DNA from: Rhizobium leguminosarum
GTDB lineage: Bacteria; Pseudomonadota; Alphaproteobacteria; Rhizobiales; Rhizobiaceae
DNA: 64,000 bases
Reading direction: 5' to 3'
NCBI RefSeq assembly: GCF_001679785.1
Contig: NZ_CP016286.1
Span: forward strand, 1,612,001 to 1,676,000
The notes under the pieces are model-generated. The model saw only the letters and a program-made list of their open reading frames with translations, was not told where the DNA came from and searched no databases. A program made the translations under genes and the position numbers. Below, piece after piece: positions 13,870 to 46,262 of the stretch (the first letter of the stretch is position 1; each line of letters starts with the position of its first letter).

Positions 13870-13894
13870 CATCCTCGGCAATGTGCCGAGGATG
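13870..13894. repeat. Solitary REP-like palindrome related to the GIY-YIG cassette ends
   Basis: CATCCTCGGCA and TGCCGAGGATG form a perfect 11-pair stem with a three-base loop. Apart from the centre it matches the palindrome bounding the GIY-YIG gene at 20546-20962 in length and in both arms (CATCCTCGG...CCGAGGAT). It sits 64 bases after gcvP and lacks a T-tract, so termination is possible but not typical. Confidence 0.6.
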
Positions 13895-19724: not shown

Positions 19725-20480
19725 TCAGGCCGCCGTGCCGATGATGTCGGCATAGCCGTTGGCTTCCAGCTCATGCGCCAGCGTCTTGTCGCCCGACTTG
19801 ATCACCTGGCCCTTGTAGAGCACGTGGACGGTATCCGGCACGATATAGTCGAGCAGGCGCTGGTAGTGGGTGATGACCACGACCGCGCGGTCCGGCGAAC
19901 GCAGCGCGTTGACGCCGTCGGCGACAATCTTCAGCGCATCGATGTCCAGGCCGGAATCGGTTTCGTCAAGCACGCAGAGCTTCGGTTCGAGCAGCGCCAT
20001 CTGCAGGATCTCGGCCCGCTTCTTCTCGCCGCCGGAGAAGCCGACGTTCAGCGGCCGCTTCAGCATCTCGGTATTGATCTGCAGCTTGCCGGCGGCATCC
20101 TTGACGCGGCGCATGAAATCCGGCGTCGTCAGCTCGTCTTCGCCGCGCGCCTTGCGCTGCTCGTTCATCGCCACCTTCAGGAACTGCATGGTGGCGACGC
20201 CCGGAATTTCGACCGGGTACTGGAAGGCAAGGAAGATGCCCTTGGCGGCGCGCTCGGCCGGATCGAGCTCGAGAATGCTTTCGCCATTATAGAGAATGTC
20301 ACCCTCGGTGACTTCGTAGTCACTGCGGCCGGACAGCACATAGGAGAGCGTCGACTTGCCGGAGCCGTTCGGCCCCATGATCGCGGCAACTTCGCCGGCC
20401 TTCACCGTCAGGTTCAGGCCACGGATGATCTCGGTGCCGTCTTCGGCGATACGGGCATGAAGGTTCTTGATTTCTAGCAT
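19725..20480 (-). CDS. sufC: SUF ABC-type ATPase SufC
   Basis: This 251-residue ATPase has the Walker A GPNGSGKST, the signature region NVGFSGGEKKRAEILQMALLEPKLCVLDETDSGLDIDAL containing Walker B, and an H-loop VITHYQRLLDYI. It powers the SufBC2D scaffold. I chose the ATG at 20480 because AGGAAG lies six bases upstream and MLEIKNLHA is the family start; an in-frame ATG at 20498 lies before that ribosome binding site. Sixty-five bases separate its start from the left arm of the inverted repeat that bounds the GIY-YIG gene. Confidence 0.96.
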   Translation of the reverse strand: MLEIKNLHARIAEDGTEIIRGLNLTVKAGEVAAIMGPNGSGKSTLSYVLSGRSDYEVTEGDILYNGESILELDPAERAAKGIFLAFQYPVEIPGVATMQFLKVAMNEQRKARGEDELTTPDFMRRVKDAAGKLQINTEMLKRPLNVGFSGGEKKRAEILQMALLEPKLCVLDETDSGLDIDALKIVADGVNALRSPDRAVVVITHYQRLLDYIVPDTVHVLYKGQVIKSGDKTLAHELEANGYADIIGTAA

Positions 20481-20545
20481 TTCGTTCTTCCTGTTCATAA
20501 AGCGGATTCAAGTGCCGCCTGATAGACCGTTCGCACCGGTCTCGA

Positions 20546-20577
20546 TCCGTCATCCTCGGGCTTGTCCCGAGGATCTA
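20546..20577. repeat. Left arm of a perfect 32-bp inverted repeat (palindromic unit)
   Basis: This 32-base arm is the exact reverse complement of 20931-20962. It also contains its own hairpin: GATCCTCGGG-type sequence with its complement around a short centre. Together the arms bracket the GIY-YIG gene, between sufC and sufB. Confidence 0.92.
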
Positions 20578-20582
20578 AGCCG

Positions 20583-20909
20583 TCAATTGTAATCGCTCCA
20601 CTCCCGCGTATTCGGATGCGGTCGATAGACATTCTCGATTTCATCGATCCGCTCGTAGAGATCCATCCAGGTCGGATTGAGCTCCTCTACGAGCTTGATC
20701 TTCCATTCACGCATATAGCGCTTCAGAGATTTTTCCCGCTGGATCGCCAACACGATGTTCGGATGGTGCTCAAACCAGACGAGATTCTTTGCTCTGTATT
20801 TCTGCGTAAAACCCTTCTGGATTTCGTTGCGATGTTCCCAAATGCGTCCGTGCAAATCGCTCGTTACGCCTCGTGGTTTGTCGGACATCATGTAGACGAA
20901 ACCACTCAT
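20583..20909 (-). CDS. GIY-YIG family nuclease (YhbQ/UPF0213-like), second motif missing
   Basis: This 108-residue protein starts MSGFVYMMSDKP, corresponding to the GIY motif region (usually YVYIL). It continues RGVTSDLHGRIWEHRNE with the Arg/Glu region and GFTQKYRAKNLVWFE, all typical of small stand-alone GIY-YIG nucleases. The NGTLYIG-type segment that carries the second motif is absent: KP joins directly to RGVTSDL, as if about five residues were deleted. It is therefore probably catalytically impaired, though the frame is open. It sits inside a 32-bp inverted repeat between sufB and sufC on the operon strand. Confidence 0.85.
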   Translation of the reverse strand: MSGFVYMMSDKPRGVTSDLHGRIWEHRNEIQKGFTQKYRAKNLVWFEHHPNIVLAIQREKSLKRYMREWKIKLVEELNPTWMDLYERIDEIENVYRPHPNTREWSDYN

Positions 20910-20930
20910 CCCACTTTCCGGATACGTGCG

Positions 20931-20962
20931 TAGATCCTCGGGACAAGCCCGAGGATGACGGA
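20931..20962. repeat. Right arm of the 32-bp inverted repeat
   Basis: This is the exact reverse complement of 20546-20577, ending nine bases from the sufB stop codon. Its internal palindrome (ATCCTCGGG...CCCGAGGAT) would form a hairpin in the suf mRNA just after sufB. Confidence 0.92.
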
Positions 20963-20971
20963 AAACTGCGG

Positions 20972-22441
20972 CTAACCGACCGAGCCCTCGAGCGAGATGC
21001 TGATCAGCTTCTGCGCCTCGACGGCGAATTCCATCGGCAGCTCCTGCAGGACTTCCTTGACGAAGCCGTTGACGATCAGCGCGATCGCCGCTTCGGTCGG
21101 GATGCCGCGCTGCAGGCAGTAAAACAGCTGACCCTCGGAGATCTTCGAGGTTGTCGCCTCATGTTCGAACTGCGCCGTCGAATTCTTCGCCTCGATGTAA
21201 GGCACGGTATGGGCGCCGCACTTGTCGCCGATCAACAGCGAATCGCACTGGGTGAAGTTGCGCGCGTTCGACGCCTTGCGGTGAGCCGAAACCTGGCCAC
21301 GATAGGTGTTGTTCGAAACACCGGCGGCGATGCCCTTGGAAACGATGCGGCTCGACGTGTTCTTGCCGAGATGGATCATCTTGGTGCCACTGTCGATCTG
21401 CTGATGGCCGTTCGACACGGCGATCGAGTAGAACTCGCCGCGGCTGTCGTCGCCGCGCAGGATGCAGGATGGATATTTCCAGGTGATCGCCGAGCCGGTT
21501 TCGACCTGCGTCCACGAAATCTTCGAACGGTCGCCGCGGCAATCGCCGCGCTTGGTGACGAAGTTGTAGATGCCGCCCTTGCCGTTCTTGTCGCCAGGAT
21601 ACCAGTTCTGGACGGTGGAATATTTGATCTCGGCATCATCGAGCGCAACCAGCTCGACCACGGCGGCATGCAGCTGGTTTTCATCGCGCTGCGGCGCCGT
21701 GCAGCCTTCGAGATAGGAGACGTAGGCGCCCTCTTCCGCGATGATCAGCGTGCGCTCAAACTGGCCGGTGCCCTTCTCATTGATGCGGAAATAGGTGGAC
21801 AGCTCCATCGGGCAACGAACGCCTTTCGGCACGAAGACGAAGGAGCCATCGGTGAAGACCGCCGAATTGAGCGTCGCATAATAGTTGTCCGAGGTCGGCA
21901 CGACCGAGCCGAGATATTTCCGGACGAGATCGGGATATTCGCGGATGGCCTCCGAGATCGACATGAAGATCACGCCGGCCTTCTTCAGCTCTGCCTTGAA
22001 GGTGGTGACGACCGAGACGCTGTCGAAAACGGCGTCGACGGCGATCTTCGGCTTCTCGACGCCGGCAAGAATCTCCTGCTCACGCAGCGGAATGCCGAGC
22101 TTCTCATAGACCTTCAACAGCTCCGGATCGACCTCATCGAGCGACTTCGGACCCGGCGTGCTTTTCGGCGCAGCGTAATAATAGATGTCGTTGAAATCGA
22201 TCTTCGGATAATTGACTCGCGCCCAGGTCGGCTCTTCCAGCGTCAGCCAGCGCCGATAGGCCTCGAGACGCCATTCCAGCATCCATTCCGGCTCCTGCTT
22301 CTTGGCCGAAATAAAGCGGATGATATCCTCGGACAGGCCCTTCGGCGCCTTGTCCATCTCGATGACGGTCTCGAAACCGTATTTGTACTGATCCACATCG
22401 ATCAGGCGCACCTGGTCGATTGTTTCCTGCACGGCAGCCAT
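20972..22441 (-). CDS. sufB: SUF scaffold subunit SufB
   Basis: This 489-residue protein begins [36 protein letters not shown]. It has the SufB signatures [52 protein letters not shown], and [19 protein letters not shown] near the C-terminus. SufB is the scaffold on which clusters are assembled and accepts sulfur from SufS. The ATG at 22441 has GGAGA upstream; a longer frame to 22468 only adds non-family residues. It lies 93 bases after the NifS-like gene. Confidence 0.97.
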
Positions 22442-22534
22442 TTCATTCTCCAATCTCGCCGGATACAAGGTCCGGCAGCTTGTAGCGTTTGGGCAATTAT
22501 CTTGCCCCTTATGTAAGAGGCCAAAAGGGACTTT

Positions 22535-46229: not shown

Positions 46230-46262
46230 CCGGAGCATGATGTCGACGACATCATGCTCCGG
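46230..46262. repeat. 33-bp perfect palindrome
   Basis: CCGGAGCATGATGTCG and its exact complement are separated by a single base, giving a 16-pair cruciform or hairpin. The GAGCATGATGTCG...GACATCATGCTC motif resembles the termini of rhizobial intergenic mosaic elements. It lies 31 bases upstream of the iron permease-like gene. Confidence 0.85.

Follow-up and report, generated by a model that had tools for sequence, protein, structure and literature searches.

The stretch of DNA analysed here (hereafter the window) comprises 64 kb of Rhizobium leguminosarum, contig NZ_CP016286.1, positions 1,612,001 to 1,676,000, and is part of an 8.57-Mb genome. Between its sufB and sufC genes lies a unit measuring 417 bp from arm to arm (20546..20962), which is made up of a small gene for a GIY-YIG nuclease and the two palindromic arms that enclose it (Table 1). 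A sequence-only reading of this DNA had described the arms as exact reverse complements, each of them itself a hairpin, with a small GIY-YIG gene as the sole gene between them. Both descriptions hold. The repeat finder reports 35-nt arms, 97% complementary at a spacing of 347 nt, of which the outer 32 nt are exact reverse complements; the sequence itself and a hairpin scan agree that in both arms a stem of 9 bp, paired without mismatch, closes a CTTGT loop of 5 nt; and the nuclease matches the Pfam GIY-YIG family with a score of 29.4 bits (cut-off 22.6).

Table 1. Features of the unit and its flanks (positions within the window)
Feature	Position	Strand	Description
Left arm, CGTC-tagged REP	20546..20577	+	TCCGTC, 9-bp stem ATCCTCGGG, CTTGT loop, tail CTA; tag outward
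Right arm	20931..20962	-	Exact reverse complement of left arm; outward tag GACGGA at 20957-20962
GIY-YIG nuclease gene, 108 amino acids	20583..20909	-	Pfam PF01541
sufB	20972..22468	-	SUFBD_core; upstream neighbour, insertion flank
sufC	19725..20498	-	ABC_tran; downstream neighbour, insertion flank

Each arm reads CGTC.ATCCTCGGG(cttgt)CCCGAGGAT and as such falls within the definition of the CGTC-tagged repetitive extragenic palindromes (REPs). As described by Di Nocera et al. (2013, PMC3733652), these are composed of a CGTC, TGTC or CCTC tag, an 8-9 bp stem starting with AT, a loop of 4-5 nt and a tail that is mostly CCA (the tail of the window arms is CTA, unlike this usual form; CCA is found in many family members elsewhere). 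They occur chiefly as head-to-head dimers and mainly in Alphaproteobacteria, with S. meliloti, A. tumefaciens and A. lipoferum named as carriers, and the family also covers RPE-4/RPE-6 of Rickettsia conorii and the Neisseria repeat CGTC-1, which is dRS3. No transposase gene was associated with these repeats; their mobiliser was left open in 2013 (early extinction of the enzyme or the use of borrowed transposases being offered as explanations), and the term GIY is absent from that paper. Searches of the open-access literature, outside which lie preprints and most subscription papers, gave among the matches listed no title or beginning of an abstract tying GIY-YIG to CGTC REPs or dRS3, and no paper with both GIY-YIG and "repetitive extragenic palindromic". 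A term check of the main text of RepRanger (PMC12306157) found neither nuclease nor transposase terms.

A tag-based hairpin scan of the entire window returned exactly two elements, the two arms. The pattern ATCCTCGGGNNNNNCCCGAGGAT (up to 3 mismatches) was found three times in the window against 0.08 expected per shuffled window, the third copy (13871-13893, 2 mismatches) being without the CGTC tag. Two further strong hairpins of the window, both untagged, are located at 13870-13894 (11-bp arms) and 46230-46262 (15-bp arms). Genome-wide, CCTCGGGNNNNNCCCGAGG with at most 2 mismatches occurs at 80 places, as compared to 30 for the reversed control, and the full stem of the window arms at 15; the full stem combined with the CTTGT loop is present solely at the two arms of the unit. 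A 48-base pattern modelled on rhizobial repeats gave no match.

The nuclease copy of the window is shorter (108 amino acids) than its closest homologues among the matches listed (113 amino acids). Among the five residues that it lacks (junction near 20867) are the Tyr and Gly of YIG, both invariant, so this copy is probably inactive. Intact copies are present in relatives; in one relative the copy is frame-shifted. In 148 genomes of the genus, the window's included, all 27 orthologues of the gene that were found are located at sufB-sufC with at least one hairpin each, which points to an old insertion. For 15 intact orthologues at this site the ratio of nonsynonymous to synonymous substitution rates (dN/dS) is 0.08, as evaluated over 80 of the 105 pairs (those with dS between 0 and 1.2); the 15 came from 25 loci, of which 18 matched the start motif and 3 of those were short.

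The association of such genes with tagged hairpins was assessed using as a query the nuclease of L002, another REP-neighboured gene of the window's genome, which was matched in 123 of the 385 alphaproteobacterial genomes searched. The 149 loci fetched contained 152 genes, or 150 after two duplicates (L198 and L200) were dropped, from 91 genomes and 56 families; this count includes one split gene (L193) twice and one GIY-YIG gene of another type (the second of L084). Open reading frames (ORFs) of the same loci, at least 150 amino acids long (longer than the nuclease) and more than 600 bp away from the nuclease gene, served as controls. By a broad rule, a tagged hairpin was present within 150 bp of 100 out of 150 nuclease genes versus 14 out of 467 control ORFs (Fisher, 6e-61), and by a strict rule, of 77 versus 15 (Fisher, 2e-40). 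Under the broad rule there are 7.8 hairpins per kb within 50 bp, dropping to 0.03 per kb at a distance of 2-5 kb, and a rule for untagged hairpins (arms of at least 9) gives the same peak near the nuclease genes over a higher background. Among the 71 genes with no strict match within 300 bp, many have variants recognizable by eye and many have none. For a second GIY-YIG subfamily (L001-type, after a gene of the window's genome, which we take to be YhbQ-like) no tagged hairpin was found within 150 bp of the gene in any of the 16 loci outside that genome, one strict-rule match in this set being located within the gene.

For 56 genes a hairpin was found on both sides within 200 bp; in 38 of them both nearest tags point outward, and in 29 the stem nearest on the left matches that nearest on the right exactly, as compared to 1.2% of between-locus pairs. 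Such two-sided, outward and stem-sharing arrangements, together with the low frequency of hairpins at control ORFs of the same loci, contradict the view that the palindromes do no more than serve a small gene as terminators or as hairpins for mRNA stability, or that they lie beside it by chance in REP-rich genomes, an explanation to which we attach hardly any probability. At the level of whole genomes, 47 of the 74 in which one or more CTTGW-loop REPs occur also have the nuclease, as do 76 of the remaining 311.

The association extends beyond Alphaproteobacteria. In a named set of loci (one genome per species, the best 80 of 587 in order of similarity to the gene of Neisseria, hence not a random sample) a tagged hairpin was found within 150 bp in 63 cases by the broad and 62 by the strict rule, with hairpins on both sides in 36. 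The hairpin-positive loci among these best 80 of 587 belong to Beta-, Gamma- and Deltaproteobacteria, Planctomycetes, Nitrospiraceae, Chloroflexi, Omnitrophota, Moraniibacteriota and Kerfeldbacteria, and several of the 17 negative ones have by eye related palindromes (e.g. CGTCATTGCGAG..CAATCC). A clustering of the hairpins at GIY-YIG genes, for which the sequence-only reading had proposed a test, is thus borne out by this set as well as by the alphaproteobacterial comparison. In a sample across phyla the family was detected in 86 out of 299 genomes (weak matches may include other GIY-YIG proteins); the 30 loci of this sample, less 5 already counted or of the window's genome and 3 at contig ends, left 22 usable new ones, with a hairpin in 15 by the broad and 16 by the strict rule. 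Records of A. lipoferum, S. meliloti and Neisseria contain the nuclease together with hairpins; in Neisseria gonorrhoeae, for example, the gene is located inside an array of dRS3-type hairpins.

Some individual loci deserve mention in their own right. In Photobacterium (L330) spaced CGTC hairpins of alternating orientation lie 450-2200 bases downstream of the nuclease gene start. A family member from Spirosoma, a representative of Bacteroidota (L336, 1983-2276), has TGTCATCCCGAGGAACGAGGGATC-type palindromes upstream, which suggests that the repeat superfamily is broader than the strict CGTC rule captures. A Planktothrix plasmid (L331, 1989-2273) carries a family member between the gene of an MmeI-type enzyme and drmA of the DISARM defence system, flanked (by eye) by TGTCATTCTGAG-type repeats. 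Among the plasmid records of PLSDB, NZ_CP119140.1, NZ_CP119142.1 and CP090106.1 are labelled plasmids, and sizes of about 2.2 and 3.7 Mb suggest chromosomes.

The type of nuclease goes together with the type of hairpin. In Rhizobium we distinguished three nuclease clades (I-III, named by their first residues) and sorted the stems into a TTCCTG/TCCCTG type and others. Next to clade II nucleases all 6 contexts have stems of the TTCCTG type (27 of 27 hairpins). Next to clades I and III this type appears in none of 7 contexts (0 of 92 hairpins), the stems there being of CTCGG or CCAGG type instead. The clade therefore predicts the stem type in all 13 contexts, and a single Sinorhizobium meliloti record repeats both pairings. 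On a tree of 101 alphaproteobacterial nucleases (103 labelled genes less 2 too short for alignment) the loop class of the hairpin requires 20 changes, as compared to a mean of 29.9 after shuffling, with 0 of 300 shuffles at 20 or fewer; members of the same host family share the loop class in 60% of cases versus 53% otherwise. These results favour a match between nuclease phylogeny and repeat subtype, for which the sequence-only reading had likewise proposed a test.

The genus sample comprised 45 nuclease genes from 44 loci (L002, three loci and 40 further rows, mostly top ones); 44 of the genes have a hairpin within 450 bp (the exception is L259), and they fall into 13 flank contexts (these may be over-merged). 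Counting outward from the stem, identity between contexts of one clade is 36-44% at positions -40 to -11 and 28-45% at -10 to -8, rises to 81-95% at -7 to -1 and reaches 84-100% in the stem and loop; further inside the cassette it is 43-91% (ungapped comparison). Likeness between Rhizobium cassettes in different surroundings stops just outside the outward CGTC tags, the latter marking terminal inverted repeats that bound the unit. For example, genome G456 contains two cassettes that are 97.6% identical, and their left flanks differ from the tag outward; on the right side likeness extends some 40 bases beyond the tag. In cassettes of clades I and II, a C at -13 outside the stem is common to the contexts (96-100% in 4 out of 4 sets) and is often accompanied by another at -12 or -11, while the bases between the -13 C and the tag vary. 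This conserved C is possibly a target motif or the true end of the element.

Sites that lack the unit were found in relatives, including the sufB-sufC site for which the sequence-only reading had called for such a comparison. Among 24 same-genus sufB-sufC loci, hairpins and nuclease occur jointly in 6, the nuclease alone in none, and 17 have neither; of the latter, 11 have short gaps of about 60-75 bp and 6 have longer ones. The one further locus has an intact hairpin, a degenerate second one and remnants resembling the start of a cassette. The longer gaps (L022, L025, L026, L028, L030 and L042) are occupied by different sequence, seemingly small genes of two or more kinds, and the sufB-sufC gap has the look of a site open to insertions in general. 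A search across the 148 genomes of the genus used the left flanks of two cassettes, and the loci matched by the first were analysed. At this second insertion site, that of one of the two G456 cassettes (19 relatives), the nuclease is present in 1, and in 3 the flanking genes are separated by a bare 11-32 bp. Two plasmid records aligned near other cassettes differ by one hairpin pair, the surrounding segment being replaced.

Similar nuclease genes are located at sufB-sufC in 4 other loci out of 241 (L063, L081, L136 and L333, the last from Azospirillum lipoferum). All four belong to lineages far from that of the window and to separate branches of the nuclease tree (L081 is without a detected hairpin). 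On this tree the sufB-sufC location needs 5 changes, a count made post hoc and prompted by the finding itself, which argues that these nucleases arrived there separately. A single ancestral origin of all sufB-sufC nucleases was rejected, as the four outside cases and the window lineage together account for the 5 changes.

These distributions bear directly on a rival explanation, in which the nuclease gene is a parasite that homes into REP dimers while the REPs themselves spread by other means: the enzyme would cut gene-less dimers, and the gene would be copied in during repair of the break, with the REPs supplying the homology. We regard it as unlikely, albeit worth serious consideration. GIY-YIG enzymes are classical homing endonucleases (PMC3161791), the gene is indeed located within a REP pair, and both the likeness ending at the REPs and the pairing of clade with subtype are equally expected from homing. 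It also agrees with the second insertion site, where 2 out of 19 relatives (4 including imperfect cases) have a hairpin without the nuclease. On the other hand, hairpins and gene come and go jointly at sufB-sufC, the one locus with an intact and a degenerate hairpin resembles a deletion derivative, and the second site has bare gaps in some relatives. The lack of gene-alone sites along with these gaps favours movement of the whole unit over homing.

As to the enzyme that would move such a unit, the family consists of a bare catalytic domain. Pfam identifies GIY-YIG in 37 out of 37 homologues, T5orf172 in 9 of them and nothing else; no HUH tyrosine-transposase domain was found by Pfam either in the window gene (solely GIY-YIG) or in these homologues. 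The Tyr and Gly of the YIG motif, together with an Arg, a His, a Glu and an Asn, are invariant in 30 family sequences; the residues that we take to be catalytic are invariant or nearly so in the family. The predicted structure of an intact orthologue (mean predicted local distance difference test score, pLDDT, of 86) has UPF0213 and then Slx1 as its nearest folds, with weak E-values, and by sequence profiles the solved relatives are UPF0213 and UvrC.

SbcCD and Slx1 act on branched DNA, and the gene could be envisioned as belonging to the host and encoding an enzyme for the resolution of REP hairpins or cruciforms once these are extruded; it would lie next to its own substrate and have no role in mobility. 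The appearance of Slx1 among the nearest folds and purifying selection on the gene (the low dN/dS given above) are consistent with such a housekeeping role. In our view it is nevertheless very improbable: presence of the nuclease in less than a third of the alphaproteobacterial genomes is patchy and its contexts are many, likeness ends at the tags, the gene arrived at sufB-sufC repeatedly and some copies are decayed, and a gene of this kind need not have its substrate on both flanks.

Overall, the likely explanation in our judgement is that the window unit descends from a mobile cassette, of which it is a copy long resident at its site and by now decayed. In such a cassette a GIY-YIG nuclease rather than a transposase would act on CGTC hairpins and mobilise both itself and gene-less hairpin pairs. 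Genome comparison establishes the pattern to be explained, namely the association, the outward geometry, the shared stems, the pairing of clade with subtype, the likeness ending outside the tags, the sites without the cassette and the repeated independent arrival at sufB-sufC. From this pattern we infer hairpin recognition, cleavage, a copy mechanism and mobilisation in trans. The cassette would comprise two CGTC-tagged REP hairpins, tags outward, around one gene for a single-domain GIY-YIG nuclease. When intact, the nuclease would recognise its own hairpin type by tag, stem and loop, in the form of an extruded cruciform or of single-stranded lagging-strand DNA, and would cut at the foot of the hairpin, where the CGTC tag adjoins. 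The unit, bounded by its tags, could then be copied into a new place by repair or replication of the host, and hairpin pairs without the gene, if mobilised in trans, would account for the CGTC REP dimers and their abundance. The simplest mechanism would be cutting of extruded hairpins in a manner that depends on structure and tag, with the copying left to the host.

A number of observations weigh against the mobile cassette. The sequence-only reading had proposed it for the window unit itself; comparative tests support the proposal, and they do so for related cassettes, the window's own copy being probably inactive and its insertion inherited in place. With every genus orthologue in place, the window lineage provides no sign of recent movement, so that the evidence for mobility comes from those related cassettes. 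By the broad rule 50 out of 150 nuclease genes have no hairpin within 150 bp, though many of these show variants by eye. The L002-type nuclease was undetected in 10 out of 31 genomes with at least 10 CTTGW-loop REPs, so either repeats persist without the nuclease or some other enzyme serves there. When the nearest nuclease is taken from other host families, the loop classes agree in 65 out of 101 cases as compared to 54 expected, the pairing being thus tight among near relatives and loose at a distance. The hairpins without the nuclease at the second insertion site are likewise what homing predicts. Among the sites compared, none was a clean empty counterpart that would reveal a target duplication; cassette-less sites differ around the insertion. 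Finally, GIY-YIG enzymes are hydrolytic and, to our knowledge, not known to join DNA, so insertion would need host functions.

The cassette was compared with several known systems. With the CGTC REPs as described in PMC3733652, it shares the CGTC tag, the AT-starting 8-9 bp stem, the 4-5 nt loop, a short tail (CTA instead of the usual CCA in the window arms) and the dimeric arrangement; the difference is that here the gene of a non-transposase nuclease lies inside the REP pair. It resembles the REPtron (RAYT/TnpA-REP) in that one gene is flanked by palindromes of a kind dispersed in genomes and enzyme types go with repeat types, and differs in enzyme (GIY-YIG versus the HUH tyrosine transposase of IS200/IS605-type) and in tag (CGTC versus GTAG). 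As in an insertion sequence or a miniature inverted-repeat transposable element (MITE), inverted repeats at its ends bound the unit, with likeness stopping outside the outward tags. I-TevI and I-BmoI are types of GIY-YIG homing endonuclease, and the cassette family has in common with such enzymes the nuclease superfamily, the logic of a self-spreading gene and the intact catalytic residues (not in the window copy). In contrast to them, cassettes occur at many unrelated sites and have palindromic ends; no intron or second DNA-binding domain was found in them, the nuclease gene being intergenic and outside any intron or intein at sufB-sufC and in the annotated contexts seen.

The single-domain proteins of the UPF0213/YhbQ type include the nearest solved relative by profile and fold (1zg2); the L001-type genes, presumably YhbQ-like, differ in having no tagged hairpin nearby in any of their 16 loci. 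Slx1 and ANKLE1 share the catalytic fold, and the cutting of branched or cruciform DNA by ANKLE1 and enzymes of the SLX1 lineage (PMC9071465 and PMC10287932) would be a plausible mode of action on extruded hairpins; unlike the cassette enzymes, both are eukaryotic repair enzymes and not mobile, and Slx1 mostly acts with a partner protein. The parts of the cassette are thus known, and the combination of a hydrolytic nuclease with palindromes bounding its gene matches none of the known element classes tested here.

On balance we incline to the view that elements of this class (a hydrolytic GIY-YIG nuclease with two outward CGTC hairpins) are the source of CGTC-type repeats throughout Bacteria, among them dRS3 in Neisseria and the dimers found in Rhizobiaceae. 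The nuclease would then be the missing partner of the CGTC repeats in the same sense as RAYT is for GTAG, by an independent origin and with an unrelated enzyme. As short repeats, CGTC REPs occur widely in the genomes of bacteria, and a nuclease located inside the repeat pair, matching its subtype and seemingly moving along with it, would answer the question about their mobiliser raised in 2013 (PMC3733652). Proteins and oligonucleotides for testing CGTC REP mobilisation are thereby at hand. A widespread class of small cassettes may well explain the spread of one large family of short bacterial repeats.
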